A stretch of 64,000 nucleotides of DNA from Flavobacteriaceae bacterium GF1. GTDB lineage: Bacteria; Bacteroidota; Bacteroidia; Flavobacteriales; Flavobacteriaceae. Below are positions 5,599 through 59,132 of the stretch, one piece after another; position 1 is the stretch's first letter; each line of letters begins with the position of its first letter. The position numbers and the translations under genes are program-made. The stretch lies in the NCBI GenBank assembly GCA_009797885.1, contig WNKP01000001.1, positions 558,001 to 622,000 on the forward strand. The letters run 5' to 3'. The notes beneath the pieces are model-generated. The model was not told the DNA's origin. It saw only the letters and a list, made by a program, of their open reading frames with translations, and did not search any database.

Positions 5599-5650
5599 TT
5601 TAGTTTAAGGTTGTAGGAGTTTCGTCGAAAAAACCCAATAATGCTTACGG

Positions 5651-6322: not shown

Positions 6323-6331
6323 AATATAGTG

Positions 6332-6685: not shown

Positions 6686-6729
6686 AATATTGGATGTTGT
6701 TTCTCCCTAAAGGTAAGAATTAATGGGAG

Positions 6730-15472: not shown

Positions 15473-15515
15473 TTCCAAATCGCTACCCCATACCATAGCC
15501 AAAAAGATAGTTTAA

Positions 15516-19069: not shown

Positions 19070-19531
19070 TTATTGAATGGCGGTTATAGTCGAACTTTGT
19101 CCATTGAACGTAATGGTATCCTCAAGGGTTTTTCCCAACAGGAGTTTTCCTATTGGTGCATTTGCCGAAACACAAAAGATACTACCCCCGTCCATCTCAA
19201 ATCTACCAGCGGAAATCGCAATATAATACCGCGCTCTATTGGTAATTACCAAGCTTCCCAGACCCACCTTGTTAGTTCGGGTTTTCAATGGAACCTTCTG
19301 AAGGGTTTGCTGCATCCGCTCCGCTTCCAGGAGTTGATATCCCAGTTTCTCCCGTTCCAATTGTAAGAGGGCACGTCCCGTTTCGTGCTTGTCACCTGCC
19401 GTACTTTTTACTTCGGACAGCAAGGCTTCCGTTATTTTTTCAATTTCCGCATGAAACCGATCTATCCTTAATTGCACATACCGTACACAAAAATGATGGG
19501 CAGCCTGTTTTGATTTAGATGGGTTCGACAT
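19070..19531 (-). CDS. GreA/GreB C-terminal-like protein
   Basis: A 153-residue protein. An N-terminal helical segment (FHAEIEKITEALLSEVKSTA ... LLEAERMQQTLQKV) is followed by a domain resembling the FKBP-like C-terminal half of GreA/GreB (VGLGSLVITNRARYYIAIS, then SANAPIGKLLLGKTLEDTIT). The coiled-coil tip acidic pair that stimulates transcript cleavage in GreA is not evident, so it may be an RNA-polymerase-binding relative without that activity. Its ATG shares one base with the stop of the histidine kinase (TAATG), implying translational coupling to the two-component system. Confidence 0.65.
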   Translation of the reverse strand: MSNPSKSKQAAHHFCVRYVQLRIDRFHAEIEKITEALLSEVKSTAGDKHETGRALLQLEREKLGYQLLEAERMQQTLQKVPLKTRTNKVGLGSLVITNRARYYIAISAGRFEMDGGSIFCVSANAPIGKLLLGKTLEDTITFNGQSSTITAIQ

Positions 19532-22290: not shown

Positions 22291-22331
22291 GTGTAAAAAA
22301 TTTTGACATATTTTGTATAAATATTTTACAC
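22291..22331 (+). promoter_or_regulatory. Upstream activator sites (two TGT-N11-ACA) for the tolC operon
   Basis: Two 17-bp dyads, TGT-N11-ACA at 22292-22308 and 22314-22330, have centres 22 bp apart (two helical turns). They sit within a larger palindrome whose ends are GTGTAAA and TTTACAC. This is the geometry of enhancer sites for NtrC/NifA-type activators. The same 41-bp frame recurs at 59025-59065. The pair lies between the divergent regulator gene and the sigma-54 promoter of tolC. Confidence 0.8.
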
Positions 22332-22393
22332 TCCAACAGTGTTTGCCAAATATGTTTTGATTTATAACATTGATTTTCAATATGTTAAAATCA

Positions 22394-22409
22394 TGGCACA
22401 ACAATCGCT
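22394..22409 (+). promoter_or_regulatory. Sigma-54 (-24/-12) promoter of the tolC-permease operon
   Basis: TGGCACAACAATCGCT matches the consensus TGGCACR-N4-TTGCW at all but one conserved base (C for T before GC). The -24 GG (22395-22396) and -12 GC (22407-22408) have the required spacing. Transcription would start near 22419, leaving a leader of about 16 nt before the tolC ATG at 22435. Confidence 0.82.
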
Positions 22410-22434
22410 TATAGTTTGGCATAGTATTTAAAAA

Positions 22435-23775
22435 ATGAATTTAAAACACTTCTTTTTCTTACTACTTCTTCTGGGCCATACCCAATTGTCCGCACAAAAA
22501 GTGTGGACGCTGGACGAATGTGTTGCCTACGCCATAGAGAACAATCTCCAGGTAAAGAATTTAAAATTTGCCGAAGACCTTGGCAAGGAAACCTACAGGC
22601 AGTCCATTCGAGACTTATTACCAAACGTATCGGCTTTCACCAACCAAAATTATAATACAGGACTAAGTGAAAACCAAGTTTCGGGTGTTTTGGAGAACAG
22701 GGAATTTTATGCCGCGGATTATCAAATCAATGCAAACTTTGATTTGTTTCAAGGCTTTCAAAAAATGAATACCATCCGGGCTTCAAAGTTCATCTACAAA
22801 GCCACTCAAGAAGATGTCCTGCAAGAGAAGTTTCTACTGGCTTTTAGGGTGATGAGCGCTTTTTACGACATCAAGTTCAATCAAGGCTTGGTCAACAATT
22901 CGATGGAACAGCTTGAAATCTCGCAAACAAACTACGATTTGGTCGCAAAACAAGTTAATCTGGGCTTAATGGCCAAAGCCGATTTGTATGAAGCCGAATC
23001 GACATTACTTAGTGATAAGCTTTTGGTCACACAGAATAAAAATTTGTTGGAACTTTCAAAACTCACATTGCGCCAGGCAATGAACCTACAGGACGAAGGT
23101 GATTTTGAAATTCAGCTCTTTGATAAGTCAATCACAGAAGAATTGACCAAAAGTGCATCCCTTGATACCATATATGATGTGGCAAAAGAGACCGTCCCTA
23201 TTGTAAAAGCACAGAAATTCAGGGTTAAAGCTGCTAAAAAGCAACTTCAAGCTACCAGGGGCAGCCTATATCCATCCATTTCCGTTACAGCGGGCATGCG
23301 AACCCAATACGTTGAAGGGGTGACGGATAGCGATAATAATGCCCTCTCCTTTTCAGAGCAGATTGACAGAAACTTTGCCCGCTCTGTCGGCGCACAACTG
23401 AATATCCCGCTCAGCTTGGGCTGGTCCAATCGCTCACGAGTAAAGCAGCAGAAAATTGCACATAAGCAAGAACTGAACAATTTGGAAATACAAGAGCAGG
23501 AACTCTTTCAACTTTTACAGCAATTGGTACAAACCAATGATGCGCTGATTGCGGAATATGAGCAAAGCAATAAAAGGCTCGAGGCCCAGGAACTGGCATT
23601 CGACATTGCACAAAAGAGGTATGAAAAAGGATTGATAAACATTATAGACCTCAATCAAACAAAAAATTTGTTCGCCACAGCGCAAAATGAAAATTTACAG
23701 GTTCAACTTAGATTAAAAGTGAACAAGAGTACATTAGACTTTTACTATAACCTTCCGGTATTCAATATCAATTAA
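22435..23775 (+). CDS. TolC-family outer-membrane efflux protein
   Basis: A 446-residue protein with a signal peptide (FFFLLLLLGHTQLSAQ, cleaved near residue 20) and the TolC/OEP pattern: two tandem repeats of long coiled-coil helices separated by strands. KVWTLDECVAYAIENNLQVK opens the first repeat. LPNVSAFTNQNYNTG and LYPSISVTAGMRTQ mark the strand regions, and AQKRYEKGLINIIDLNQTKN is the typical conserved end of the second repeat. It forms the trimeric exit channel. First gene of the rightward operon, 8 bp before the adaptor. Confidence 0.93.
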   Translation: MNLKHFFFLLLLLGHTQLSAQKVWTLDECVAYAIENNLQVKNLKFAEDLGKETYRQSIRDLLPNVSAFTNQNYNTGLSENQVSGVLENREFYAADYQINANFDLFQGFQKMNTIRASKFIYKATQEDVLQEKFLLAFRVMSAFYDIKFNQGLVNNSMEQLEISQTNYDLVAKQVNLGLMAKADLYEAESTLLSDKLLVTQNKNLLELSKLTLRQAMNLQDEGDFEIQLFDKSITEELTKSASLDTIYDVAKETVPIVKAQKFRVKAAKKQLQATRGSLYPSISVTAGMRTQYVEGVTDSDNNALSFSEQIDRNFARSVGAQLNIPLSLGWSNRSRVKQQKIAHKQELNNLEIQEQELFQLLQQLVQTNDALIAEYEQSNKRLEAQELAFDIAQKRYEKGLINIIDLNQTKNLFATAQNENLQVQLRLKVNKSTLDFYYNLPVFNIN

Positions 23776-23783
23776 ACTAGACA

Positions 23784-25034
23784 ATGGATATACAACTAGA
23801 AAAGAAAAAAGGATTGCGCCCAAAACACTACGGGTATATTGCAGTGGGTGCGCTGCTGCTCTTTGTAGGATGGAAGCTGGCTTTTGGCAATTCCAAATCT
23901 ACCTTTAGGACAGAAAAGGAACGTCTTTCCATTTCATCGGTCTCCGAGGGCAAGTTCGATGATTATATCACCATTAACGGAAATGTGGCGCCAATTGCCA
24001 CTATTTATATGGATGCCTATGAAGGTGGTCGGGTGTCGGAAAAGCTGATCGAAGAAGGGGCTATGGTCAAAAAAGGCGATATCATCCTTCAGTTGGAGAA
24101 CATGAACCTCTACGAGCAAATATTGGCCAGTGAGAGCAACCTGGCCCTTAAACAGAACGATTTGCGTTCCACAAGGCTCACCTTTGATGCCAGACAGGTA
24201 GAAGGGCGCAGGTCGTTGGCCACAGCAAGTACCGACCTCCAACGATTGAAACGAAATTACGAACAGAACGTAGTCCTATTTGAAGATGAGCTCGTGTCCA
24301 AAGAGGTGTATCTGACCTCAAAGGAGAACTATGAACTGGCACAGAAGCAGTATGAAATTGTGAAGCTACAGACCGAACAGGACGATGAACTACGGAAAAC
24401 CTCCCTGGCGGGCCTGGATACCGATCTACAAAGGATGAAAAAGACCTTGGGTATGGTCTACCAACGGTTGGACCACCTTAATGTAAGGGCCCCTGCCGAT
24501 GGGCAATTGGGTTTCCTGGACGCCGAAATTGGACAGAACATCACCCAAGGGCAACGCATTGGGCAAGTCAATGTCCTGACCGATTTTAAAATTGAGGCCG
24601 ATATTGATGAACATTATATCGATAGGGTAAAACGGGACCTTTCTGCCAGTCTTGATCGCAATGGAAAGGAATTTCCCTTACGCTTACGAAAGGTGTATCC
24701 AGAAGTACGTAACGGACGGTTTAAAGTGGATTTGGTTTTTACCGATGAAAAACCTGAGACCATTAGGGCCGGCCAAAGCTATAACATCAAACTGCAATTA
24801 GGGGCTTCCAGTGATGCGCTCTTATTACCAAAGGGAGGGTTTTTTACCAGTACCGGGGGACAGTGGGTGTTTGTTGTGAACCCCAATGGTGGCGAAGCCT
24901 TAAGGCGTGACATCCGAATAGGAAAGCAAAACTCCAGATATTATGAAGTGCTCGAGGGCCTACAACCTGGGGAAGAAGTCATCACCAGTAACTATGACAG
25001 CTTTGGAGAAGCAGAACGAATCGTATTAAAATAA
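23784..25034 (+). CDS. MacA/HlyD-type periplasmic adaptor protein
   Basis: A 416-residue membrane-fusion protein with one N-terminal membrane helix (about 15-33, YGYIAVGALLLFVGWKLAF) and then a split lipoyl-like domain (SEGKFDDYITINGNVAPIA ... GDIILQLENMNLYEQ). A long coiled-coil hairpin follows (about 110-215), then the second lipoyl half (LNVRAPADGQLGFLDAEIGQ) and a beta-barrel (LLLPKGGFFTSTGGQWVFVV). It would bridge the inner-membrane permease and TolC. It lies 21 bp before the repeat-protein gene. Confidence 0.92.
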   Translation: MDIQLEKKKGLRPKHYGYIAVGALLLFVGWKLAFGNSKSTFRTEKERLSISSVSEGKFDDYITINGNVAPIATIYMDAYEGGRVSEKLIEEGAMVKKGDIILQLENMNLYEQILASESNLALKQNDLRSTRLTFDARQVEGRRSLATASTDLQRLKRNYEQNVVLFEDELVSKEVYLTSKENYELAQKQYEIVKLQTEQDDELRKTSLAGLDTDLQRMKKTLGMVYQRLDHLNVRAPADGQLGFLDAEIGQNITQGQRIGQVNVLTDFKIEADIDEHYIDRVKRDLSASLDRNGKEFPLRLRKVYPEVRNGRFKVDLVFTDEKPETIRAGQSYNIKLQLGASSDALLLPKGGFFTSTGGQWVFVVNPNGGEALRRDIRIGKQNSRYYEVLEGLQPGEEVITSNYDSFGEAERIVLK

Positions 25035-25055
25035 ATAATAATAAAACATCAAAAA

Positions 25056-25688
25056 ATGAACAGATTAATCATGATTTATGGATGTGTGCTCTTATCAAGC
25101 TCCGCCATAGCAGTAGAACAGCAACACATTGGGGAGGTACCCTACATTACGGAAGCCATACAGGCCCAGGACCGGTTTGAAAACCTTATTACCGCAGTTG
25201 ACCACAAGGCCATGCCTTCAACATTGGTTTCAAACCCTGCCCATAAAAAGAAGAAAGAGGCCTATGATATGGACCTCAGTAAAATTGAATACATAGAGGA
25301 TGAGACCATTGAATTGGGTTTTGACCCTTATGACTATCTACCGGAACATTTTGATCCCCACTCCTTTTTCCTTGACCTGAACACACTTGAATTCATGGAA
25401 GGGGAAGAAGAAGGATTTTGTTTGGATTTTGATACCGCCAAATACCTTCCTGAAGGCTTCAATGCTTTTGCGGAGCCGAACGGCATGGCATCCATTAATT
25501 ACATCGAAGGGGAGGATGTTGATCTTGGTTTTGAAACCGAGGACTATCTTCCGGAAGGGTTTTCCCCTTTTGAGCCTTATTTTGATTTGAACGCCATTGA
25601 GTATATCGAAATGGACGATTCCGTATTCGATTTTTTGGCATTCCCGGAAAACGGAAATTACAATGACTTCCACAATAGATCCAAATAA
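25056..25688 (+). CDS. Secreted acidic repeat protein of unknown function
   Basis: A 210-residue protein with a signal peptide (1-19, ending SSSAIA) and, from residue 73, about three and a half copies of a 34-36-residue acidic repeat. Each copy starts IEYIE/LEFME/INYIE/IEYIE (residues 77, 111, 147, 181), continues with acidic residues and (L)GF, and ends DYLPEGF-type (YLPE at 94, 130, 164). The linker before the repeats is Lys-rich (AHKKKKEAY). No family was recognised. Its place between the adaptor and the ATPase genes suggests a periplasmic accessory of the transporter, for example a substrate or metal/cation-binding factor, but this is inference. Confidence 0.75.
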   Translation: MNRLIMIYGCVLLSSSAIAVEQQHIGEVPYITEAIQAQDRFENLITAVDHKAMPSTLVSNPAHKKKKEAYDMDLSKIEYIEDETIELGFDPYDYLPEHFDPHSFFLDLNTLEFMEGEEEGFCLDFDTAKYLPEGFNAFAEPNGMASINYIEGEDVDLGFETEDYLPEGFSPFEPYFDLNAIEYIEMDDSVFDFLAFPENGNYNDFHNRSK

Positions 25689-25718
25689 CTAATTAACTAA
25701 AGATTATAACAGTAAAAA

Positions 25719-26414
25719 ATGATACAAATACAGAACCTAAAAAAGAGTTTTAGAACGGAAGAGGTAGAAACCCTGGCATTAAATGGGGTCAACCTCAGTA
25801 TTGAAGAAGGTGAGTTTGTCGCGGTCATGGGGCCTTCTGGCTGTGGCAAATCCACCTTATTGAACATTATTGGCATGTTGGACAACCCTACCGAAGGAAG
25901 CTACAATTTTGCGGGCCATGAAGTGGCTGGATTACGGGAAAGCCAGCGGACCCAACTGCGAAAGGGAAATCTGGGATTTGTCTTCCAAAGCTTTAACCTT
26001 ATTGACGAACTCACTGTATTCGAAAATGTGGAACTTCCGCTTATCTATTTAAAAATGGGGAAAGGGGAGCGAAGGGAAAAGGTGAAGGCCGTTTTGGAGC
26101 GGATGAAAATTGCACATCGGGAAAAGCATTTTCCACAACAACTTTCCGGAGGGCAACAACAACGGGTGGCCATCTCCAGGGCCGTTGTGACCAATCCAAA
26201 ACTGATCTTGGCGGATGAGCCTACGGGTAACCTGGATTCCAAAAACGGTATTGAGGTCATGAATTTGTTGACCGAACTGAACCAAGAGGGTACCACAATA
26301 GTGATGGTAACCCACTCCGATCGCGATTCCCATTATGCCCACAGGGTGGTCAATCTATTCGATGGTCAAATCGTAACCGAAAGTCAAAACAGAACCATTG
26401 GCGCCATGGTATAG
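25719..26414 (+). CDS. ABC transporter ATP-binding protein (MacB/LolD type)
   Basis: A 231-residue ATPase with Walker A MGPSGCGKSTLLNIIGMLD (about 37-55), the Q-loop VFQSFNLIDELTVFENVELP, signature LSGGQQQRVAISRAVV, Walker B LILADEPTGNLDS and the H-loop VTHSDRD. The GMLDNPTEG and DEPTGNLDS forms are typical of the MacB/LolD group, which powers mechanotransmission permeases instead of moving substrates through the membrane. It is the only ATPase gene between the two sigma-54 promoters and precedes 13 permeases, so it is the presumed shared engine. Confidence 0.95.
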   Translation: MIQIQNLKKSFRTEEVETLALNGVNLSIEEGEFVAVMGPSGCGKSTLLNIIGMLDNPTEGSYNFAGHEVAGLRESQRTQLRKGNLGFVFQSFNLIDELTVFENVELPLIYLKMGKGERREKVKAVLERMKIAHREKHFPQQLSGGQQQRVAISRAVVTNPKLILADEPTGNLDSKNGIEVMNLLTELNQEGTTIVMVTHSDRDSHYAHRVVNLFDGQIVTESQNRTIGAMV

Positions 26415-26448
26415 AGAGGCATATTCATCAATCAAAAAACGAACACTC

Positions 26449-27210
26449 ATGAAATCACTTGTCAAATGTCTGAACACCAGTTTGGTCATCTCCTTGTTTG
26501 TGCTATTTCCAATCCATTGTTTTGGGCAGCCCAAGAATGTACCCGTGGACAGTTTTGACAAGGTCATTGTAAGCCCCCACATCTCCGTAACGTTTGTTCA
26601 GGGAGCATCCGAAGCCGTAATGGTCCATACAAATACGGAACCCATGGACAAACTACATATTGAAGTGGTGGGTTCCACCCTTCGTCTCTATCTGGACGGT
26701 GCAAAAATGACCACAAAGCACGAAAGGGTCAAAAATGAACAATGGAAGGGCAAAAAAGCAATCTACAAAGGCACCGTGGTGACGGCCACCGTTACCTACA
26801 AAAAACTTAAAGAACTATCCCTAAGGGGAGAAGAGCAATTCCTCTGCGAAAGCCCTATTGACCAATCTGAATTTAGGCTAAAGCTGTATGGCGAATCCGA
26901 AGTCCATTTCAACGATGTCAATTTAGAACGCTTTACCACAACCATTTATGGGGAAAGCTATTTGGAGCTTAGGGGGGGAGTGATTGGAAAGCAGAAAATT
27001 ACGGCCTACGGGGAAACAAAAGTGAATACCCTTGAGGTTGATACCCACCATACCAAAATCACGGCTTATGGAGAGGGAAGTTATCGAATAGCAGTAAGGG
27101 ACAGGCTTAAAGTTACTGCATTTGGAGAAGCTACCATTGCTTACCAGGGTTCTCCCGAGGTAAACAAAGGAATAGTTATAGGAGAGGCCACCATCCAAAA
27201 AATCAATTAG
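26449..27210 (+). CDS. GIN-domain (DUF2807) exported protein
   Basis: A 253-residue protein from the ATG at 26449; the longer frame from 26398 starts with TTG and overlaps the ATPase gene. A signal peptide (LVISLFVLFPIHCFGQ) is followed by a right-handed beta-helix-like region with recurring turns KLYGESEVHF, TIYGESYLEL, ITAYGETKV, ITAYGEGSY and VTAFGEATI. This matches the putative auto-transporter adhesin head GIN domain common in Bacteroidota, whose role is uncertain. It lies 3 bp before the first permease, so co-expression is almost certain. Confidence 0.85.
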   Translation: MKSLVKCLNTSLVISLFVLFPIHCFGQPKNVPVDSFDKVIVSPHISVTFVQGASEAVMVHTNTEPMDKLHIEVVGSTLRLYLDGAKMTTKHERVKNEQWKGKKAIYKGTVVTATVTYKKLKELSLRGEEQFLCESPIDQSEFRLKLYGESEVHFNDVNLERFTTTIYGESYLELRGGVIGKQKITAYGETKVNTLEVDTHHTKITAYGEGSYRIAVRDRLKVTAFGEATIAYQGSPEVNKGIVIGEATIQKIN

Positions 27211-27213
27211 GAC

Positions 27214-29640
27214 ATGTTCAAAAACTATATAAAAATCGCTTGGCGGAACCTAACAAAAAACAAGCAACAAACCCTAATCAATCTTTTCGGTCTTACTATC
27301 GGAACTGTAAGCTGCCTTATCATTCTCCTTTATGTATTTGCACAATTGGGCTACGATGAACACCACAAGAATGTAGGGGATACTTTTCGTGTTGAGACCA
27401 ATATAGAACTCGAAAATAGGAACATTAATACTGCGTCCGCATCACCACCCATCGCCTTTGCCCTCAAAGAGGATTTTCCAGAGGTCCAGGAAGCCACCAG
27501 GATTGTATTGACCGATGCTTTCTACAGTACCCTTATCCGTGCCACGGAAAGTACCGAAGCTTACTATGAGCCCAGGTCCTATATGGCAGACTCCACTTTT
27601 TTTAAAATTTTTACGTATCGGTTTTTGGAGGGTCACCCAGAGACTTCCCTGAATGAACCCAATGCTTTGGTGCTCTCTTCCGTTTTGGCCAAAAAACTGT
27701 TCGGTTCCCAATCGGCTTTGGGCAGGACAGTGGTATGGGGCAGTGGCGAAGATGCTCAAACCTTAACCGTTAAAGGGGTTTTCGATGACACTTATGGAAA
27801 ATCGCATCTTAATCCCAACTATATTGTTAGCATGAGTACCCCGGGAATGGGAACCTTCGTTCAAGGCTTTGATGACTTTGCAACAAACAATTTTGTGTAC
27901 AGCTATGTGAAGTTAAGCTCAAATGCAGAAATGGGATCACTTCAGAAAAAGTTACCCGATTTCATACAGGAAAAAGGGGCTAAAAACTTGGCAGATGCAG
28001 GCATGACGAAAAAAACACTCTTGCTTAAGAACATTGCGGACATCCATTTGTATTCGGCGGGAAGGTCAAACCAAATCCATGAGGTATCGAGTATCAAATA
28101 CCTCTATTTCTTGCTGCTATTGGCCTTTTTTATTCAGCTGGTTGCCTGTGTCAACTTTATCAACTTGAGCACCGCAAGGGCAAGCAAACGTGCTAAGGAA
28201 ATTGGGGTCCGTAAAGTGGTCGGTGCTGGTAAAAATATCTTGGTACGGCAATTTTTGGGGGAGTCCATACTACTGTCCTTTTTGGCCATGCTCATCAGTA
28301 TTCCCTTGGCCATTGTTTTGCTTCCTTCTGTAAATGATGTCGCCTCCGCTGCACTAAACTACGTTGACGTATTCCAGTGGAGAATAGTGGGCTTGCTCTT
28401 TGGTATTGGCATAGTTACGGGTTTCATGTCCGGTATCTATCCTGCCATTGTACTCTCTTCGATAAAACCTGTAAAAGTGCTGAAGAGTGCGGCCATATTA
28501 CAATCAGGTAATGGTATGTTTAGGAAGGTCCTGGTTGTTTTTCAATTCGTAGTCGCCATAGGGCTGGTTGCTACAGTCATTATTGTTATGCAACAGTTCC
28601 GATACACGCAGCAAAAAGACCTCGGGTTTAGTAAAGATAACGTATTGGCCCTTCGGATTGGCCCAAACGAAGCAACCAGTAAATTCAAATCCATTAAATC
28701 TGCTTTCCTAGCCATTCCAGGAGTGCTTGAAGTTTCCAGTGGGAACTACGCCCCATCTGAGGTGGTACTGAGTGATAATGGCTTTTACCTTCCAGGAGGT
28801 AGTCGTAAAAAAGTAACCCTTGTAAAACGCAACGGCATAAGCGAGGCCTATTTTAAGACTATGGGTATTCCCATTTTGGAAGGACGGGACTTTACGGCTG
28901 CCGATACCAGTAATCAGATTATTGTGAACCAAGCTACTTTAAAGGCGTTAAAAATTCCGCAAGAAAGGGCGGTCGATTCCAAATTGATGCAAAGCTTTGG
29001 GGAGGAGACTTTTGAGATGCGAATTATAGGTGTTGTTGCGGATTATCATTTTGCCTCTTTAAAAGAATCCATCGCTCCCCTGTTCCTCTACCAGGAAGAG
29101 GAGCCAAATTGGGTGTTCTTAAAAACGCAAACCAATGATTATGGACAGTTACTCACCCAATTGGAACAACAGTGGAAGGCAACTGTGGACAATGTGCCCT
29201 TTGACTACAGGTTTGTTGATAAGGAGATGGAAAAGCTGTATGAAGGAGAGAAACGTTTAGGCCAGATCTTTGCCATTTTTACCGTTTTGGCCATTTTAAT
29301 CAGTTGCTTGGGACTCTATGGCCTTATTTCCTTTGTAGCCGAACAGAAGAAGAAGGAAATTGGTATTCGCAAAGTATTGGGAGCCAGCGTCAATTCCGTA
29401 GTACAGCTATTGACCAAGGACTTTTTAAAACTGGTGATGACTGCTTTTGTGGTCGCAGTCCCAATCGTTTACCTGTCTATGCAGCGATGGCTGGAAAATT
29501 ATACCTATAGCATTGACATTCAGTGGTGGGTGTTCATTTTGGCCGGAAGCTTTGCCTTTATTATAACCGTATTTACAGTAGGCTTGCAGTCATTAAAAAC
29601 AGCAATGATAAATCCTGTAAAAAGTCTGCGAACAGAATAA
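27214..29640 (+). CDS. MacB-like ABC permease P1
   Basis: An 808-residue permease without an ATPase domain and the model for the array. Membrane helix 1 is at about 20-43, periplasmic domain 1 to about 290, helices 2-4 at about 293-412, helix 5 at about 433-456, periplasmic domain 2 to about 680, and helices 6-8 at about 691-792. This is two MacB-type units (MacB_PCD plus FtsX) fused head to tail, so one chain should act as the usual dimer and bind two ATPase subunits. Cytoplasmic loops: AKEIGVRKVVGAGKN and KKEIGIRKVLGASVN. It ends NPVKSLRTE. Substrate unknown. Confidence 0.92.
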   Translation: MFKNYIKIAWRNLTKNKQQTLINLFGLTIGTVSCLIILLYVFAQLGYDEHHKNVGDTFRVETNIELENRNINTASASPPIAFALKEDFPEVQEATRIVLTDAFYSTLIRATESTEAYYEPRSYMADSTFFKIFTYRFLEGHPETSLNEPNALVLSSVLAKKLFGSQSALGRTVVWGSGEDAQTLTVKGVFDDTYGKSHLNPNYIVSMSTPGMGTFVQGFDDFATNNFVYSYVKLSSNAEMGSLQKKLPDFIQEKGAKNLADAGMTKKTLLLKNIADIHLYSAGRSNQIHEVSSIKYLYFLLLLAFFIQLVACVNFINLSTARASKRAKEIGVRKVVGAGKNILVRQFLGESILLSFLAMLISIPLAIVLLPSVNDVASAALNYVDVFQWRIVGLLFGIGIVTGFMSGIYPAIVLSSIKPVKVLKSAAILQSGNGMFRKVLVVFQFVVAIGLVATVIIVMQQFRYTQQKDLGFSKDNVLALRIGPNEATSKFKSIKSAFLAIPGVLEVSSGNYAPSEVVLSDNGFYLPGGSRKKVTLVKRNGISEAYFKTMGIPILEGRDFTAADTSNQIIVNQATLKALKIPQERAVDSKLMQSFGEETFEMRIIGVVADYHFASLKESIAPLFLYQEEEPNWVFLKTQTNDYGQLLTQLEQQWKATVDNVPFDYRFVDKEMEKLYEGEKRLGQIFAIFTVLAILISCLGLYGLISFVAEQKKKEIGIRKVLGASVNSVVQLLTKDFLKLVMTAFVVAVPIVYLSMQRWLENYTYSIDIQWWVFILAGSFAFIITVFTVGLQSLKTAMINPVKSLRTE

Positions 29641-29658
29641 ACCAAAAAGCAAGCAACC

Positions 29659-32094: not shown

Positions 32095-32141
32095 ATACAA
32101 GCAGCGCCAAATGTAGTCGAAACATCAAAAAACGAACCGTC
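32095..32141 (+). repeat. 47-nt intergenic spacer, P2/P3
   Basis: The most divergent of five 45-48-nt spacers in the array. The core AGTCGAA aligns with GGTCGAA/GGTCTAA of the others, but the flanking CCC/GGG dyad is replaced by a short ATGT/ACAT pair. It ends in the start leader AAAAAACGAACCGTC. Confidence 0.5.
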
Positions 32142-34517: not shown

Positions 34518-34533
34518 ACCAGTCAAAAAGACC

Positions 34534-37017: not shown

Positions 37018-37032
37018 ATAAAAACGAGAATC

Positions 37033-39423: not shown

Positions 39424-39470
39424 ATCATCAACTTGCCCTGAGATGGTCGAAGGGTGAAAAAAATAGCATC
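39424..39470 (+). repeat. 47-nt intergenic spacer with dyad, P5/P6
   Basis: Contains CCCTGAGATGGTCGAAGGG, whose CCCT and AGGG ends can pair around a TCGA-containing loop. Very similar spacers lie at 41850, 53942 and 56426, suggesting they were copied along with the genes. Confidence 0.65.
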
Positions 39471-41849: not shown

Positions 41850-41894
41850 ATCAATAACCTACCCTGAGGATGGTCGAGGGGTCAAAAAAGCATC
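41850..41894 (+). repeat. 45-nt intergenic spacer with dyad, P6/P7
   Basis: Contains ACCCTGAGGATGGTCGAGGG, a close relative of the spacer at 39424, and ends in AAAAAAGCATC before the ATG of P7. Confidence 0.65.
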
Positions 41895-44279: not shown

Positions 44280-44296
44280 TCAAAAAACGAAAAATC

Positions 44297-46696: not shown

Positions 46697-46712
46697 CCAA
46701 AAAAGAGGGGTC

Positions 46713-49112: not shown

Positions 49113-49129
49113 ACCTTTAAAAAACAGTA

Positions 49130-51553: not shown

Positions 51554-51571
51554 ACACAAAAACGAACGATC

Positions 51572-53941
51572 ATGTTTAAAAACCATTTGAAAATCGCCTG
51601 GAGGAATATTGTAAAAAACAAGGTCTTTTCCCTGTTGAACATTACAGGTCTGGCCACTGGCCTTTTATGCAGCCTCCTCATATATCTATGGATAGGCAAT
51701 GAACTCACCATAGATAACTACCACGAAAACATAGATCGATTGTATTCCGTTTACCAAAAGCAGATTTTCGAAGGTAGGATAGATGCAGGGTATTTTACTC
51801 CGGCTGTACTTTACAGGGAGTTAAAAAATAAAATTCCCGAAATTGAGAAAGCCTCCCCAATGAGTTGGAAAGGTGCCAAAACGTTTGCTTACAATGATTA
51901 CATCTTTAAACAAGAAGGGTTTTTCGTTGGTGAGGATTATTTTGATATGTTTTCGTACCACTTCTTGGAAGGTACTGTTGCGTCCGTACTGAATTCCCCC
52001 GATAATATCGCTATATCGGAAGAAATGGCACGGCTTTTTTTTGGAAGTCCCGAAAATGCCATTGGCAAATCGATTTCTTATGACAATAGCCGCTTGTTGA
52101 ACGTATCCGCTGTGCTTAGGGATGCCAGCCCCGACACTTCCAAAAAAAGTGATTTTTTCCTGCATTGGGATATTTTCCTGCAGGAAAATGGATGGGCACC
52201 CGATATTACAAATAGTGGCTCAGCGACTTTTATAATGCTCAAGGAAAATTCGAACGTTGCGGCCGTAAATGCCAAAATCAAGGATTTTCTAACCCCCTAC
52301 AGGGCGGAAGAAGATGACAATTTTACAGTGGAACTGGGGCTACAGCCTTTTGGAGAGAGCTATCTGAACAACAATTTTAAGAACGGTGTTATTTCAGGTG
52401 GTCGTATTGATAATGTCCGCATCTTTGGTTTTATAGCCTTCTTCATTTTGCTGATTGCCTGCATCAACTTTATGAACCTGGCTTCCGCCGGTTCCTTGAA
52501 ACGATTCAAGGAAGTGGGAATTCGGAAACACCTGGGGGCCAAAAAAGGAAGTTTGATATTCCAATTTTTAGGGGAAGCCCTTTTACTTTCCTTCGTTAGT
52601 ACAGTTTTATCACTCGTTTTGATAGTGTTGGCAATGCCCACATTCAATGCGCTTTTGGGAAAGGATTTAAGTCTTGCCAGCCTCCCTCCTTTATCCTGGT
52701 TGGGTATTTTGGGGATTTCCCTTCTGACAGGTATTGTTTCCGGTAGTTATCCTGCATTTGTACTGTCTTCCTTTAAAGCGATCTATCTATTCAAAAACAA
52801 CAAAAACGCCAATGCTGGTTCCCAGTGGATTCGGAAGGGCCTGGTCGTTTTTCAATTTGCCCTGACCATCATCCTGATTTCGGGAATGCTGATCACATCG
52901 CGTCAAATCGATTATATACAGAATGAAAGACTCGGTTTTGACCGTCATAATGTTTTTGTCTTTGCATTTCAAGGTGATTCCACACGTACTTTTACCGGCC
53001 TAAAGGAAAGGGCTTTACAACTTCCCGGAGTGGAGCATATGTCGATTTCCAACGTAGGGCCCATGCAGTTTTCAAATGGATTTGATGATGTACAATGGGC
53101 GGGTAAACCCGACAATGACCCAACCATATTCATGAGTATGGATGTTGGGTCCGATTTTGCCAAAGCTTGGGGCACGGAAATGCTTATGGGCACCGATTTT
53201 TCCGATAAAAGTATTGCGGACAACTCAGGCTATATCATCAATGAGACCGCTTTGGGAATAATGGGGCTTGAAGACCCCATAGGCCAACCCTTGACCATGT
53301 GGGGCAGGGAAGGAACTATTGTCGGGGTAATGAAGGATTTTCCAATAAATACGGTAAAAACTGCGATTCCCCCTTTGGTTATTCGCAATGGGGAATATTT
53401 GAATAAGGGGGCCGTTTTAGCGCGAATCAGTCCTACCAACACGATTGAAACGGTAGAAGCTTTGGAAAAGTTGTATATCGAAACACTTCCGGAAGTTCCC
53501 TTCGATTATGTCTTTACCGATGCGTGGTACAATGCCATGTATAAAAGTGAAACCATCTTCCATAAACTCTCCCAGTACTTTTCACTGATGGCGATATTCA
53601 TTTCATGTTTAGGGCTATTCGGCCTGGTCATTTTTTCGGCCCAACAAAGGGAAAAGGAAATCGGAATACGAAAAGTACTCGGTGCTTCAGCCAGTAAGAT
53701 TACCCGTCTTTTGGTAAAGGATTTTCTGAGATCGGTGGTCTTGGGCATTGTCATTGGTTGTCCTATTGCCTGGTATTTTATGGATAAATGGCTTACCAGC
53801 TACGAATATCGAATCGACATGCCCTGGCGGGTCTTCGGATTCGCGGGAATGTTGGTAATTGTAATAGCACTGTTGACCGTCGGTTTTAAATCGATAAAAG
53901 CGGCCATGACCAATCCAGTGGAAAGTTTACGAACAGAATAA
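51572..53941 (+). CDS. MacB-like ABC permease P11
   Basis: A 789-residue doubled permease, the shortest complete member of the array. Periplasmic domain 1 (KQIFEGRIDAGYFTPAVLYR) recalls P6. The first half carries NLASAGSLKRFKEVGIRKHL, with His in the loop where others have Thr, Ser or Val. The second loop is EKEIGIRKVLGASASK. The ATG follows AAAAACGAACGATC, one of the clearest copies of the common start leader. A 48-nt dyad spacer follows. Confidence 0.92.
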   Translation: MFKNHLKIAWRNIVKNKVFSLLNITGLATGLLCSLLIYLWIGNELTIDNYHENIDRLYSVYQKQIFEGRIDAGYFTPAVLYRELKNKIPEIEKASPMSWKGAKTFAYNDYIFKQEGFFVGEDYFDMFSYHFLEGTVASVLNSPDNIAISEEMARLFFGSPENAIGKSISYDNSRLLNVSAVLRDASPDTSKKSDFFLHWDIFLQENGWAPDITNSGSATFIMLKENSNVAAVNAKIKDFLTPYRAEEDDNFTVELGLQPFGESYLNNNFKNGVISGGRIDNVRIFGFIAFFILLIACINFMNLASAGSLKRFKEVGIRKHLGAKKGSLIFQFLGEALLLSFVSTVLSLVLIVLAMPTFNALLGKDLSLASLPPLSWLGILGISLLTGIVSGSYPAFVLSSFKAIYLFKNNKNANAGSQWIRKGLVVFQFALTIILISGMLITSRQIDYIQNERLGFDRHNVFVFAFQGDSTRTFTGLKERALQLPGVEHMSISNVGPMQFSNGFDDVQWAGKPDNDPTIFMSMDVGSDFAKAWGTEMLMGTDFSDKSIADNSGYIINETALGIMGLEDPIGQPLTMWGREGTIVGVMKDFPINTVKTAIPPLVIRNGEYLNKGAVLARISPTNTIETVEALEKLYIETLPEVPFDYVFTDAWYNAMYKSETIFHKLSQYFSLMAIFISCLGLFGLVIFSAQQREKEIGIRKVLGASASKITRLLVKDFLRSVVLGIVIGCPIAWYFMDKWLTSYEYRIDMPWRVFGFAGMLVIVIALLTVGFKSIKAAMTNPVESLRTE

Positions 53942-53989
53942 ATCATCAATCTGCCCATAGCATGGTCTAAGGGTCAAAAACGAACAATC
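53942..53989 (+). repeat. 48-nt intergenic spacer with dyad, P11/P12
   Basis: Contains GCCCATAGCATGGTCTAAGG followed by GTC and the leader AAAAACGAACAATC. It is nearly identical to the spacer at 56426, so the pair probably arose with the P12/P13 duplication. Confidence 0.7.
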
Positions 53990-56425
53990 ATGTTTAAAAA
54001 TTATTTAAAAATCGCCTGGAGGAACCTAAAAGGTCAGCCCTTTTTTACCTTTTTGAACACATTTGGGTTGGCTATTGGCCTAGCTGGCGGATTGCTTGTT
54101 GCCCTTTATATTTATGATGAACTGGGTTTTGACAAAATGTTTGCAGACGCAGACCAAATCCACCGTATAAATGTTGATGTGAAATTTGGCGGTACCGAAA
54201 GTGTCATGGCAGAGGTATCAGCACCAATGGCTGCTGCCATGTCGGCAGATTTTCCCCAAGTAGTCCTTACAACGCGGTTCAACAGTGCTGGGAACGCTTT
54301 GATACGAAAAACGGAGATGACAAAAAACGTCAAAGAGAGCTATTCCACTTTGGTGGATCCCTCATTTTTTGAAATGCTTGGTCTTGATCTCCTGGTTGGT
54401 GATGTGGAGACCGCTTTGAAAGAACCAAATACCTTAATACTCACAAGGAAAGCCGCCGAAAAACATTTTGGCATTAACGAAGCCCTAGGGCAGACTTTAT
54501 TGGTGAACAATACCGATACCTATACGGTTACCGGGGTAATTGATGATATGCCCAAAAATTCGTTCCTAAGGGATTACTCCGTTTTTATATCAATGTCGAG
54601 TTATGAAGATGCCATGAGTGATGAATGGACAAGTCATAATTACTACACTTTGGTGAAACTTGTGCCCGGAACAAATTTGAATGAATTTCAAGAGGCTTTG
54701 CAATCGATGTTTGGCACCTATGTCATTCCCTACGCACAACAGTTCTTTCCGGGTATTACCGAAGAACAGTTTAAAGCATCAGGAAACCACTTAAATTTTA
54801 GTAGTACCCCCCTTTTGGATGTGCACCTATATTCCGATATCGATGGCGAGATGAGTGCCAATAGTAGTATCCGAAACGTTTATATCCTCTCCTTTATTGG
54901 TCTTTTCCTGTTGGTACTGGCCAGTGTAAACTTTATGAACCTTTCTACGGCGTACTCCTTGAAAAGGGCCAAAGAAGTAGGTATACGTAAGACATTGGGC
55001 TCAACAAAATCGAGCTTATTGCAACAGTTTCTTATCGAGTCCGGCTTAATAACCTTTATCTCATTGGTTTTAGCTATTTTGATTGCACTCTTGGCCCTGC
55101 CATTCTTTAACAATTTGGCTGGAAAGGATATTTCAATGCCCTTTGGGAATCCACTTTTTTGGTTACTGTTGTTCATCTCCACCATAGTCTTGGGATTACT
55201 TTCTGGTTGGTATCCCTCATTTTTTATGGCACGATTTATTCCTGTTGAAGTACTAAAAGGTTCGGGGGGGAAAAGCATTCGGGGCGGAAAAGTTAGAAAT
55301 GCTTTGGTTGTTTTTCAGTTTTCTATTTCCGTATTTCTGATCATAAGTACCTTGGTCATCTATCGGCAACTGAATTTCATCCAAAGTAAGGATTTGGGCT
55401 TTTCCAAAAACCAGGTGTTGATTGTTGAAGATGCCTACGCTGCCGGTGACAATATCCAATCCTTTAAGGAAAGGGTAGGTCAACTTGCACAGGTTCAAAG
55501 TGTATCGCTTACAGGGTATTTGCCTACACCCTCTTACCGGAACAACACCAGTTTTATGAAAGAGAGATCCTTGGATCAGGAAAATGCCATCAATATGCAG
55601 GTTTGGAGTGTAGACCACGATTATATTCCAACCTTGAATATGGAGTTGGTGGCTGGACGTGACTTTAATAAAGATTTTGCGGCTGATTCTACGGCAATAA
55701 TCCTCAATGAGTCTGCCGTAGCCATTCTTGAAAAACAGCCAGAAGATGTTCTCGGCATGCGACTTTCAAACGATTTGGGAGAAGCCGAAAATCCTGAATT
55801 TTTAAAAGTAATAGGGGTTATCAAAAACTTCCATTATGAGACCCTTAGGAAGAATATTGGTGCATTATCCCTTAGGATTGGTGATTCAAGGGGTTCAATG
55901 GCCATAAAATTAAGTGCCGGTGATTTTTCAGCAGCCATAGCTGATGTGGAAAAAATATGGAATGGGCTTGCCCCCGGACAACCTTTTACGTATCGGTTTA
56001 TGGATGATGCCTTCAATACAACTTATGAATCGGAACAGAATCTTGGGCAAATATTTATGGTGTTTACCTTTCTTTCCATCCTAATAGCATGTCTTGGGCT
56101 ATTTGGGCTAGCTGCATTTAATGCTGAAAAGCGTACCAAGGAAATCGGGGTTAGAAAAGTACTTGGAGCAAGTGTTGGGCAAATTTCATATCGCCTGACC
56201 ATGGATTTCCTGCAATTGGTTGGCATTGGTATTTTAATATCGTTGCCCTTGGGTTGGTTGGCCATGGACAGATGGTTGGAGGATTTCTCGTATCGAATTG
56301 AAATCAGTTGGTGGATCATGTTGCTAGCTGGTTTTCTAGCTATTACAATTGCCATACTTACCGTGAGCTATCAGAGTATTAAAGCGGCCATAACAAACCC
56401 GGTAAAAAGCCTGCGAACAGAATAA
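53990..56425 (+). CDS. MacB-like ABC permease P12 (subfamily A)
   Basis: An 811-residue doubled permease, a close relative of P13 and P2. Shared blocks are QPFFTFLNTFGLAIGLAG, KMFADADQIHRINVDVKFGG, the GITEEQFKASGNHL stretch at the end of periplasmic domain 1, and SYRLTMDFLQLVG in the last part. Docking loops: AKEVGIRKTLGSTKSSLLQQ and TKEIGVRKVLGASVGQ. It is more AT-rich to the eye than P13, suggesting the copies have been diverging for some time. Confidence 0.93.
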   Translation: MFKNYLKIAWRNLKGQPFFTFLNTFGLAIGLAGGLLVALYIYDELGFDKMFADADQIHRINVDVKFGGTESVMAEVSAPMAAAMSADFPQVVLTTRFNSAGNALIRKTEMTKNVKESYSTLVDPSFFEMLGLDLLVGDVETALKEPNTLILTRKAAEKHFGINEALGQTLLVNNTDTYTVTGVIDDMPKNSFLRDYSVFISMSSYEDAMSDEWTSHNYYTLVKLVPGTNLNEFQEALQSMFGTYVIPYAQQFFPGITEEQFKASGNHLNFSSTPLLDVHLYSDIDGEMSANSSIRNVYILSFIGLFLLVLASVNFMNLSTAYSLKRAKEVGIRKTLGSTKSSLLQQFLIESGLITFISLVLAILIALLALPFFNNLAGKDISMPFGNPLFWLLLFISTIVLGLLSGWYPSFFMARFIPVEVLKGSGGKSIRGGKVRNALVVFQFSISVFLIISTLVIYRQLNFIQSKDLGFSKNQVLIVEDAYAAGDNIQSFKERVGQLAQVQSVSLTGYLPTPSYRNNTSFMKERSLDQENAINMQVWSVDHDYIPTLNMELVAGRDFNKDFAADSTAIILNESAVAILEKQPEDVLGMRLSNDLGEAENPEFLKVIGVIKNFHYETLRKNIGALSLRIGDSRGSMAIKLSAGDFSAAIADVEKIWNGLAPGQPFTYRFMDDAFNTTYESEQNLGQIFMVFTFLSILIACLGLFGLAAFNAEKRTKEIGVRKVLGASVGQISYRLTMDFLQLVGIGILISLPLGWLAMDRWLEDFSYRIEISWWIMLLAGFLAITIAILTVSYQSIKAAITNPVKSLRTE

Positions 56426-56473
56426 ATCATCAATCTGCCCATAGCCTAGTCTAAGGGCCAAAAACAAACAATC
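56426..56473 (+). repeat. 48-nt intergenic spacer with dyad, P12/P13
   Basis: Contains GCCCATAGCCTAGTCTAAGG followed by GCC, so the outer bases can pair as GCCC/GGGC. Compared with the spacer at 53942 the arm ending changes from GGGT to GGGC, which restores pairing. It ends with AAAAACAAACAATC. Confidence 0.7.
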
Positions 56474-58912
56474 ATGTTTAAAAATCATTTGAAAATCGCT
56501 TGGAGAAGCTTAAAAAAGCAGCCCTTTTTTACCTTTCTCAACACGTTTGGTCTGGCTATTGGTATGGCTGGGGCCTTGCTTATTGCCCTTTACATCCATG
56601 ATGAACTGAGCTACGACAAAATGTTTGCGGATGCGGACCGCATTTATCGTATTAATGCGGATGTGAAATTCGGTGGTCTGCCGGAGCAGCTTGGTGAATC
56701 GCCCGAACCCATGGCAGAAACCTTGATGCGGGACTATCCCCAAGTAGAGCTGGCAACACGTATTAGGGACCAAGGGAGTGTGCTGATCAGAAAAGCAAAT
56801 GTAACCAGCAATGTAAAGGAACTGAACAGTGCCTTTGTGGATTCTACCTTCTTTAAAATGTTTGGGCTTGCATTTTTGGACGGTGATGTAACTACAGCAC
56901 TGACAGAACCCAATACATTGGTGCTCACCCGAACGGCGGCCGAAAAGCATTTTGGGGTAAACAATGCCGTTGGCCAGGAGATGGTACTCAATAACTTGGG
57001 GACCTTTAGGGTAACCGGTGTTATGGAGGACATGCCCAAGAATTCCCTCCTAAGGGACCATACCGTCTTCATCTCCATGCCCAGTTTTCAATTTGCACAG
57101 ATCGGTCATTGGGGCAGTCTTAACTATTACACTTTTGTGAAAATGGTGCCCACAGCAGATATGGCCAACTTTCAAGAAGGCTTGGACTCTTTGCTCGGAC
57201 GTTATTTGATTCCGTGGATACAGGATTATTATCCCGGTATGACCGAAGCTTCATTCCGGGCTTCCGGAAATTTTATCAATTACAGCGCCATGTCCCTTAC
57301 GGATATCCATTTGCAGTCCAATATGAAAACCGAACTCAGCGCCAATGGAAGCATGCAAAACATTTATATTCTTTCGTTTGTCGCCATTTTCCTTGTAGTT
57401 CTGGCCGTTGTCAACTTCATGAACCTTTCCACGGCCTATTCCTTGAAACGGGCTAAAGAGGTTGGCGTACGCAAGACCTTAGGTTCCGATAAATCTGATT
57501 TGGTCCGCCAGTTCCTTACAGAATCGGGATTCATCTGCTTTCTTTCCCTACTCCTTGCCGTGGGTGTCGCTTTTTTGGTGTTGCCCCTATTCAATGACTT
57601 GGCGGACAAGGCCATTTCCATTCCTTTTCAAAACCCTATGTTCTGGGCCATTTTAATAGGTGCCACCTTAGTGGTGGGTGTCCTATCGGGAACCTATCCT
57701 GCATTTTTTATGTCCAGATTTATTCCGGTCAAGGTATTGAAGGGGAGCGGACTTTCCGATGTCGGTGGAAGTAAAGTACGCAACTCCCTTGTTGTCTTTC
57801 AGTTTGCCATATCCATCCTTTTAATTGTGGCCACCGTTGTGGTCTACCAACAATTGAACTTCATCCAAAGTAAGGAACTGGGCTATGAAAAGGCACAAAT
57901 CTTGGTGCTGGAGGATATAAACAATGTAAATGGGCAAGAACAGTCCTTAAAGCGTGAGGTCCTGCGTTTGGGGCAGGTACAAAGTGCTACCCTCAGTAGT
58001 TTTTTGCCCACCCCTTCCGCAAGAACGGGTCAAACCTTCTTTAAAGAGGGTGCCAACAACCAGGAGGATGCCATAAACATGGAAAACTGGAGGGTAGACC
58101 ATGATTACCTTTCTACCTTGGGCCTGGAACTGATTACAGGCAGGGATTTTGATGTTCGTATTCCTACCGATTCCAGTGCCGTAATCATTAACGAGGCCAC
58201 ACTCAAAACACTGAACGTGAGTGCCGAAAATGCTATTGGACTTCGCATCTCATCGGATTTGGGGGCCAGTGAGGACGCTATTACCTACCAGACCATTATT
58301 GGGGTGGTTAGGAATTTCCACTATGATTCCATGCGGAAGAATATTGAGGCCCTCTGTTTGGGTATTGGACGGTTCCCTGGATCCTTGGCCATAAAAATGG
58401 GAACCCAGGATGTTACCGCAACGGTATCTGCCATTGAGGGCATCTGGAACACCATAGCTCCTGGACAACCCTTCAACTACTATTTTTTGGACGACTCCTT
58501 TAACGACAGTTACGATGCAGAGCAGCGATTGGGACAAATATTTTCGGTTTTCACCGTCCTTTCCATACTTATTGCCTGTCTGGGACTGTTTGGATTGGCC
58601 ACTTTTAATGCCCAAAGAAGGACCAAAGAAATTGGAATACGCAAAGTTTTAGGGGCCAGTATAAGCCAAATATCATATCGCTTGACCACGGATTTCTTGA
58701 AAATGGTGGGCTGGGCAATTATCATTTCCCTGCCCATTGGATGGTACGCCATGAATCAATGGCTTCAAGATTTTTCCTATCGCATCGAAGTTCAATGGTG
58801 GATGTTGCTCCTGGCCGCATTTTTGGCGATAGCCATTGCCGTTCTTACGGTGGGCTATCAAAGCATCAGGGCTGCCGTGGCAAATCCCGTGAAGAGTTTA
58901 CGGGCGGAGTAA
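56474..58912 (+). CDS. MacB-like ABC permease P13 (subfamily A), last gene of the large unit
   Basis: An 812-residue doubled permease related to P12 and P2 (KKQPFFTFLNTFGLAIGMAG; MFADADRIYRINADVKFGGL). Docking loops: AKEVGVRKTLGSDKSDLVRQ and TKEIGIRKVLGASISQ. It ends NPVKSLRAE. After its stop codon the array is interrupted by 266 bp with a strong hairpin and a new sigma-54 promoter, so it should be the last gene of the transcript that begins at tolC. Confidence 0.93.
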   Translation: MFKNHLKIAWRSLKKQPFFTFLNTFGLAIGMAGALLIALYIHDELSYDKMFADADRIYRINADVKFGGLPEQLGESPEPMAETLMRDYPQVELATRIRDQGSVLIRKANVTSNVKELNSAFVDSTFFKMFGLAFLDGDVTTALTEPNTLVLTRTAAEKHFGVNNAVGQEMVLNNLGTFRVTGVMEDMPKNSLLRDHTVFISMPSFQFAQIGHWGSLNYYTFVKMVPTADMANFQEGLDSLLGRYLIPWIQDYYPGMTEASFRASGNFINYSAMSLTDIHLQSNMKTELSANGSMQNIYILSFVAIFLVVLAVVNFMNLSTAYSLKRAKEVGVRKTLGSDKSDLVRQFLTESGFICFLSLLLAVGVAFLVLPLFNDLADKAISIPFQNPMFWAILIGATLVVGVLSGTYPAFFMSRFIPVKVLKGSGLSDVGGSKVRNSLVVFQFAISILLIVATVVVYQQLNFIQSKELGYEKAQILVLEDINNVNGQEQSLKREVLRLGQVQSATLSSFLPTPSARTGQTFFKEGANNQEDAINMENWRVDHDYLSTLGLELITGRDFDVRIPTDSSAVIINEATLKTLNVSAENAIGLRISSDLGASEDAITYQTIIGVVRNFHYDSMRKNIEALCLGIGRFPGSLAIKMGTQDVTATVSAIEGIWNTIAPGQPFNYYFLDDSFNDSYDAEQRLGQIFSVFTVLSILIACLGLFGLATFNAQRRTKEIGIRKVLGASISQISYRLTTDFLKMVGWAIIISLPIGWYAMNQWLQDFSYRIEVQWWMLLLAAFLAIAIAVLTVGYQSIRAAVANPVKSLRAE

Positions 58913-58974
58913 TCCAACAAAAACGGGGTTTCATTTTAAAGTAGCATTGGGATCGGGAATTCCTGGCAATTATG

Positions 58975-59023
58975 GGGCCATTGAAGGGAAGTATAGATTT
59001 CAAACCCTTCCCTTCAATGGCCC
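58975..59023 (+). terminator. Perfect 17-bp inverted repeat between the two permease units
   Basis: GGGCCATTGAAGGGAAG (58975-58991) and its exact reverse complement (59007-59023) flank a 15-nt loop, 62 bp after the P13 stop. No T-run follows, so it may be a non-classical terminator or an mRNA 3'-end protector. Its last two bases are also the first bases of the activator-site palindrome. Confidence 0.6.
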
Positions 59024-59024
59024 A

Positions 59025-59065
59025 GTGTAAATATATTATACAGAATCTGTAAAATAATTTTACAC
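59025..59065 (+). promoter_or_regulatory. Upstream activator sites (two TGT-N11-ACA) for the P14 unit
   Basis: TGT-N11-ACA at 59026-59042 and 59048-59064, again 22 bp apart and framed by GTGTAAA/TTTACAC. The outer palindrome extends to CCAGTGTAAA/TTTACACTGG (59022-59068). The frame is identical in length (41 bp) to the sites before tolC at 22291. Confidence 0.8.
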
Positions 59066-59116
59066 TGGTAATGCCACGATTAGTCATATATAGCTGTATA
59101 TCAGATTCTTGTGTTT

Positions 59117-59132
59117 TGGCATGAAAATCGAA
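59117..59132 (+). promoter_or_regulatory. Probable sigma-54 promoter of the P14-P15 unit
   Basis: TGGCATGAAAATCGAA keeps the -24 GG (59118-59119) and the -12 G (59130) at the correct distance but has A instead of C after that G, so it is weaker than the tolC promoter, which shares the TCG at the same place. Transcription would start near 59142, leaving about 37 nt before the P14 ATG. Confidence 0.6.

Follow-up and report, generated by a model that had tools for sequence, protein, structure and literature searches.

What switches on the two units of MacB-type permease genes found in a 64,000-nucleotide stretch of DNA from Flavobacteriaceae bacterium GF1 (contig C11:558001-622000; the whole stretch is hereafter called the window)? 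The first unit starts with a tolC gene, transcribed divergently from the gene of an NtrC-type response regulator, and the second starts with the permease gene P14. An earlier note on this DNA had claimed that both units are preceded by the same enhancer-promoter layout and form a small regulon of that regulator. Our analysis indicates that the two sites are most likely enhancers of one conserved sigma-54 regulon of MacB-type exporter genes. The interpretation of the earlier note is supported, and the regulon is wider than proposed, with at least five and probably six sites in the genome.

The same predicted enhancer-promoter layout precedes tolC and P14

The strict frame GTGTAAA-N27-TTTACAC was found twice in the window, before tolC and before P14, exactly where the earlier note had placed it, and never in 100 dinucleotide shuffles. 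Both copies, of 41 base pairs (bp) each, fit the pattern of two dyads TGT-N11-ACA-N5-TGT-N11-ACA with no mismatches and with 22 bp from one dyad centre to the next (22300/22322 and 59034/59056). The window contains three further matches to the dyad pattern, each with two mismatches; shuffles average 2.7 matches within two mismatches. A chance origin of the strict frame was rejected, given its absence from the shuffles and the roughly 0.0003 copies expected genome-wide under an independent-base model.

Each frame is followed by a predicted −24/−12 promoter. Measured from the frame centre, the first G of TGG lies 84 bp away at the tolC site and 73 bp away at the P14 site, in agreement with the distances to the −24 G reported earlier. 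Two details had to be corrected. The spacer between TGGCA and TCG is 6 bp in both promoters (TGGCACAACAATCG, TGGCATGAAAATCG), not 7 bp, and the transcription starts, predicted with the second G as position −24, fall at ~22420 and ~59143, one base away from the earlier estimates of ~22419 and ~59142.

The domain scan of the regulator bore out the GAFTDA loop (at residue 229) and the Fis-type helix-turn-helix (HTH) that had been ascribed to it; its recognition helix reads SRQTLYNK. The protein reaches no NCBIfam equivalog cut-off among the matches listed (25 families), scoring 398 of 502.6 bits for the PEP-CTERM regulator (PrsR), 373 of 714 for AtoC and 351 of 558.6 for NtrC. Its closest named relative, 99% identical, comes from a Croceivirga metagenome-assembled genome (locus L029; among the best 80 of 371 named loci), which probably puts the present bacterium in Croceivirga or close to that genus. 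A sigma-54 gene (rpoN) is present in the same genome (C22:437332-437808, E 5.8e-52).

The presumed partner kinase has two predicted transmembrane helices joined by a very short loop (hydrophobic windows ~6-31 and ~32-56, from hydropathy only). Exactly two hydrophobic stretches were seen in 54 of the 79 kinase orthologs with an N-terminus, and one, three or four in the other 25. Since there is almost no loop between the two stretches, the kinase probably binds no external ligand via a domain of its own. Upstream of the kinase gene lie a 115-amino-acid (aa) open reading frame (ORF) and a 908-aa MacB-type permease gene (window 15125-18242); no site with fewer than eight mismatches was found upstream of the latter.

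Sites across the genome

The genome (5.28 Mb, 62 contigs) was searched with the frame TGTAAA-N8-ACA-N5-TGT-N8-TTTACA, with the reversed pattern as control. The frame occurs five times exactly and three times with three mismatches; copies with one or two mismatches are absent. The control gave five matches within three mismatches, none of them exact. The exact copies stand before tolC, P14 and three lone permease genes (contigs C7, C44 and C54), with TGGYA at 84, 73, 85, 84 and 85 bp, respectively. The genome-wide search, which the earlier note had proposed, reveals a motif that is not common at unrelated loci: all five exact copies lie before tolC or a permease gene. The predicted regulon is larger than the two window units described in the earlier note. 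Gene context was read for one of the three-mismatch sites (the other two are L012 and L014). This sixth site precedes a further C44 permease gene (L017:2989-5391), has TGGCA exactly at 84 bp and is a probable member of the set.

The genome contains 24 distinct PF12704 open frames of at least 795 aa, all of which were checked for an upstream site. Five have a site and promoter of their own (one of these being the three-mismatch site). The thirteen tandem permeases P1-P13 of the first unit, as well as P15 and P16 of the second, have no own site and would be transcribed by read-through; in total, 20 of the 24 permeases fall under the motif, directly or via a presumed operon. For P1-P13 the read-through would come from the tolC promoter: the 400 bp before each of these genes contain no site with fewer than five mismatches, and the 12 gaps from P1 to P13 are at most 48 bp long or overlapping. 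A permease on the minus strand of C44 shares a site with its neighbour and has no TGGYA in its own direction. No upstream site was found for the 908-aa window ORF, C44:290258 or C3:100090 (the start codon is uncertain for the latter two). The shared C44 enhancer lies between two divergent permease genes (L016:8209-13573), with a −24 box at the right distance only on the plus side. In the stretches read around the lone permease genes (L004, L015, L016 and L017; 12-19 kb each), no core-like ATPase gene was seen.

Conservation of sites and spacing in relatives

Three sets of genomes were searched with the same frame: 11 genomes of the genus and 120 genera of the family and 149 genomes drawn class-wide, all of them including the genome studied here. 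Exact sites were found in 6 of the 11 and 7 of the 120, own genome included. The control pattern was absent in exact form from all three draws. Outside the own genome there are 22 exact sites (11 per search, in 11 other genomes), and the next gene is a permease gene in 16 cases and tolC in six. In 20 of the 22, TGGYA is located at 73-74 or 83-86 bp. A relaxed search of the genus, with the outer AAA/TTT loosened and TGGCA demanded at 73-87 bp from the frame centre, gave 24 sites, many of them the same as in the exact search, against none for the control; 23 precede tolC (8) or a permease gene (15), at spacings of 73 (four), 74 (one), 84 (14), 85 (three) and 86 bp (one). Thus, the spacings fall into two classes, 73-74 and 83-86 bp, across many promoters, as expected from the earlier proposal that the two window spacings differ by about one helical turn.

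The divergent gap between the regulator gene and tolC was compared in the best 80 of the 371 named regulator loci. It contains a site in 78 of them, with no mismatch in 58, one in 18 and two in two, and TGGYA follows at 83-85 bp in 77 of these 78 (at 84 bp in 72). The cultivated relative Croceivirga thetidis (L090) shares this tolC promoter layout, its site having one mismatch. A second TGGYA, 23 bp past the tolC −24 box and near the predicted start, is kept in 72 of the 78 loci; a start set by its window copy would lie inside tolC.

In the class-wide draw the exact frame was found in the own genome alone (1/149). The frame was rejected as a general flavobacterial element: its exact form is absent from 103 of 103 family genomes that lack a regulator match of at least 74% identity, and from 148 of the 149 genomes class-wide. 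Within the stretches read, the permease arrays of relatives contain additional predicted enhancer-promoters: four besides that of tolC in genome G009 (two with one mismatch), two in G076 and one in G004. The P14 site is the own genome's instance of such an enhancer-promoter inside a permease array.

The protein that probably reads the frame

Regulator matches in the 120-genus draw reach at least 74% identity in 17 genera and 63% in two; the remaining matches listed are at or below 49%. All seven motif-positive genera carry a regulator of at least 74% identity, versus 17 of 120 overall (Fisher 3.3e-7, uncorrected for shared descent). Of 14 ortholog gaps fetched, one ends with its contig (L191) and all 13 readable ones contain a site with one or two mismatches. 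The recognition helix of the orthologs is SRQTLYNK or TRQTLYNK. In six paralogs of 43-49% identity it is TRAALYRR (three), TRTALYRR, SRAALYRR or TRSSLYRR, and no site with fewer than six mismatches was found in the first 500 bp. We conclude that the neighbouring regulator, of the sigma-54 type, very probably acts through this frame. Paralogous activators with the LYRR-type helix (44-49% identity, L202-L206) adjoin hlyD-like genes that lack this enhancer, and may constitute a sister system with a different motif of its own.

A conserved element between predicted enhancer and promoter

When 72 tolC promoters are aligned, a further conserved block, TGAT-N2-TCA-N5-TTA, stands out between the predicted enhancer and −24 box. 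Among unique permease promoters the best match to TGATNNTCA is located 13-15 bp before TGG in 18 of 22 (shuffle mean 1.5, maximum 6); this test omitted three rows, two with alternative promoters (L171, and L183 at 83 bp) and one match in the opposite orientation (L161). In a separate tolC set 11 of 12 have a match at that position; near relatives are included in these counts. TGATNNTCA combined with TGGCA-N6-TNG occurs 19 times in 8 of the 11 genus genomes, and the control never. Eight of these 19 matches precede a gene of ~305 aa with a lipoprotein-like start (L208, L211, L212, L213, L216, L221, L223 and L225), probably another sigma-54 target. These eight rule out confinement of TGATNNTCA to this regulon, and since it also precedes a gene outside the regulon, the element probably accompanies sigma-54 promoters here in general. 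An IHF-like protein might bend the DNA at this place, which is only a lead: of 77 tolC spacers, 7 contain the IHF consensus WATCAANNNNTTR in exact form (shuffle mean 0.5, maximum 3), so most spacers lack an exact match.

Exporter genes

The features of the locus are collected in Table 1. The permeases contain MacB_PCD and FtsX domains, the combination typical of MacB-type (type VII) ABC exporters, and a profile built from 21 of them matches MacB structures. The small acidic ORF between adaptor and ATPase is a possible substrate or accessory protein. The P14 unit continues past the window end with the rest of P15, P16 and a second ATPase gene (L005:1623-4004, 3982-6486 and 6509-7174), whose product is 51% identical to the core ATPase; the ORF that follows is on the opposite strand.

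Table 1. Coordinates of the exporter locus and its predicted control elements in the window
Feature	Position	Strand	Basis
Sensor histidine kinase, presumed cognate partner	19531..20874	−	HATPase_c; H-box at H232
NtrC-family response regulator (REC-AAA+-HTH_8), predicted activator	20864..22237	−	Pfam Response_reg, Sigma54_activat, AAA_lid_14, HTH_8
Predicted enhancer (upstream activating sequence, UAS) of tolC operon, two TGT-N11-ACA dyads	22291..22331	+	Frame match; kept in 78/80 named loci
TGATTTTCA element between UAS and promoter, possible bending site	22371..22379	+	Element search (C11:580371)
Predicted −24/−12 promoter TGGCACAACAATCGC, +1 ~22420	22394..22408	+	Motif and spacing
Second conserved TGGCA, 23 bp downstream, without −12 GC	22417..22421	+	tolC promoter comparison
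TolC-type outer membrane protein	22435..23775	+	PF02321
HlyD/MacA-type adaptor	23784..25034	+	PF13437; DarC below cut-off
Small acidic ORF, N-terminal hydrophobic (signal-like) stretch, LPEGF/YIE repeats	25056..25688	+	No Pfam/NCBIfam match
ABC ATPase, DarD/MacB-NBD-like (NBD, nucleotide-binding domain), separate 231-aa polypeptide	25719..26414	+	PF00005; DarD 301 of 375 bits
DUF2807 (head GIN / Toastrack) protein	26398..27210	+	PF10988
P1-P13, thirteen tandem double permeases (MacB_PCD + FtsX)	27214..58912	+	PF12704 in each; P1 and P13 domain-scanned
Predicted enhancer (UAS) of P14 unit	59025..59065	+	Frame match
TGTATATCA, degenerate TGATNNTCA element, 2 mismatches, gap 13	59095..59103	+	Element test
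Predicted −24/−12 promoter TGGCATGAAAATCGA, +1 ~59143	59117..59131	+	Motif and spacing
P14 double permease, first gene of second unit	59179..61602	+	PF12704, PF02687
P15 double permease, truncated by window end	61622..64000	+	P16 and second ATPase follow outside

Comparison with G004 revealed a tolC counterpart that is only 59% identical, next to a regulator, adaptor and ATPase of 98.7-99.3% identity. The DNA flanking the tolC core is 94.7-94.8% identical up to ~22551 and from ~23660; the drop in identity, confined to 22551-23660 between near-identical flanks, points to replacement of the tolC core. The G004 array (L232-L233) contains no gene best-matching P1, P4 or P12, and the permease repertoire varies among near relatives.

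Discussion

From the motif, its spacing, the placement of genes, their conservation and the co-occurrence with the regulator, all read from the DNA itself, we infer the following mode of control. The kinase would phosphorylate the NtrC-type regulator, whose dimers would bind the two dyads 22 bp apart. The AAA+ ring would then assemble and contact sigma-54 polymerase at the −24/−12 promoter some seven or eight helical turns away, and the intervening DNA may bend at the TGATNNTCA element. This would switch on the operon of the core exporter (TolC, adaptor, ATPase, DUF2807 protein and P1-P13), together with a booster promoter at P14 that would also read P15, P16 and the gene of the second ATPase; at other places in the genome, three and probably four lone permeases would respond as well. 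An ATPase, adaptor and TolC from other loci would then have to serve the lone permeases, and the simplest candidates are those of the core operon. The signal would be of the envelope-stress or antimicrobial-peptide type.

Several observations weigh against a regulon of this kind or narrow the evidence for it. Two of the 22 exact sites in relatives (L158 and L160) have TGGTT only and no good −24 box. One relaxed match (L167, spacing 78 bp) has neither tolC nor a permease gene downstream, two of the 80 named loci (L086 and L087) have the regulator and no recognisable site, and one (L099) lacks TGGYA at 83-85 bp. Several promoters have only a weak −12 element. Near relatives do not provide independent sites, and in the relaxed search the spacing range was preset to 73-87 bp. 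As the control also reaches the three-mismatch level, the sixth own-genome site rests on position and spacing. Finally, internal promoters of another type may exist within P1-P13.

We considered whether the frame could be bound by another regulator that co-evolved with the permeases, while the divergent NtrC-type protein acts elsewhere. The genome does encode five other strong sigma-54 activators besides this regulator. Their C-termini differ, however, and none shows the SRQTLYNK helix in its last 60 residues, so that among the six this helix is found only in the regulator studied here; moreover, 78 of 80 loci have the frame in the divergent gap next to the regulator gene itself, and across genera the presence of the frame follows this ortholog and the type of its recognition helix, which makes such an arrangement unlikely. 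It is less likely still that the dyads mainly auto-repress the regulator gene, with tolC and the permeases activated from sigma-A type promoters. With 57 bp between it and the start of the regulator gene in the near-identical locus L029, the tolC site could indeed touch the regulator promoter, but 16 of the 22 exact sites in relatives stand before permeases, outside the regulator gap, and TGGYA follows at a fixed distance in 20.

The promoters might also have been copied along with duplicating permeases, in which case their likeness would reflect ancestry and not present function. This would agree with the paralogy of the permeases, which are 23-34% identical to P14, and with array members that differ between near relatives. 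Yet the spacers are dissimilar while the UAS, TGATNNTCA and −24 box are kept, the same layout also precedes tolC, whose promoter does not belong to a permease, and the spacings form two classes one turn apart. We regard simple copying as the least probable of these explanations, a very slim chance, and retain activation by the neighbouring regulator as the preferred reading.

The predicted system resembles NtrC-family sigma-54 regulons such as AtoSC, ZraSR and PrsKR in its REC-AAA+-Fis HTH architecture, the GAFTDA loop and the paired dyads upstream of −24/−12 promoters, and differs from them in a regulon made of transporter genes. With MacAB-TolC and the darobactin exporter DarBCD the core operon shares TolC, adaptor, ABC ATPase and a MacB_PCD/FtsX permease encoded in one operon. 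The ATPase is fused to the permease in MacB and is a separate chain here; the permeases here are doubled (~800 aa), with thirteen in a row plus lone ones. The NCBIfam cut-offs for DarBCD are missed by the permeases scanned (P1 157, P13 188 and P14 85 of 700 bits), the adaptor (193 of 450) and the ATPase (301 of 375). The same three permeases miss the ADOP TIGR03434 cut-off of 622.3 bits (309, 303 and 250).

In Bce-type modules the regulator is of the OmpR type, in contrast to the NtrC-type regulator described here. Such modules (BceAB-BceRS; PMC10314905) tie FtsX-type permeases to a kinase without an external sensor domain. In the present system many FtsX-type permeases and a kinase of possibly similar build are combined with predicted sigma-54 control and a TolC tripartite context. 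BceAB transporters and their two-component system sense antibiotics, according to a review of MacB (PMC5985334), and flux sensing is described in the BceAB-S structure paper (PMC10314905). Bce-like flux sensing by the present kinase would be only a model to test. A more far-reaching picture, which we consider speculative and rather doubtful, is that one sigma-54 two-component system runs an exchangeable-permease exporter: some twenty double permeases, encoded singly or in arrays with built-in booster enhancers, would be interchangeable partners of a single TolC-adaptor-ATPase core. In this picture the kinase would respond to how the permeases themselves are working, as a Gram-negative sigma-54 counterpart of Bce flux sensing.

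An enrichment of sigma-54 promoters at COG0577 (FtsX-like) permeases has been reported for Bacteroidia as well as other classes and was called the first evidence for such a link (PMC12316311). That study ties the same gene class to sigma-54 by promoter statistics; its passages on these permeases name no activator, enhancer, spacing or gene set like the one described here, and the terms 'upstream activating' and 'UAS' do not occur in its main text. Sigma-54 promoters, as well as three proteins with a sigma-54 interaction domain, were found in Flavobacterium psychrophilum (PMC9723704). The association of sigma-54 with the cell exterior is a general theme (PMC3162934), in a report whose main text does not contain Bacteroid, permease, MacB or TolC. 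The unification of DUF2807 into the Toastrack domain of envelope-stress systems (PMC11237479) fits the presence of a DUF2807 gene in the core operon. Our searches of the open-licence literature showed no description of this regulator, motif or regulon among the papers listed; the kind of control is classical, the gene set and layout apparently new.

For a permease class whose sigma-54 control has so far been inferred from promoter statistics, the predicted regulon would supply an activator, a well-defined enhancer motif and a set of genes. It would also connect lone permeases that have no related ATPase nearby with a single core exporter, so that the ATPase supply of orphan FtsX-type permeases becomes testable, and it offers a natural promoter series for testing the helical phasing of sigma-54 enhancers in Bacteroidota.

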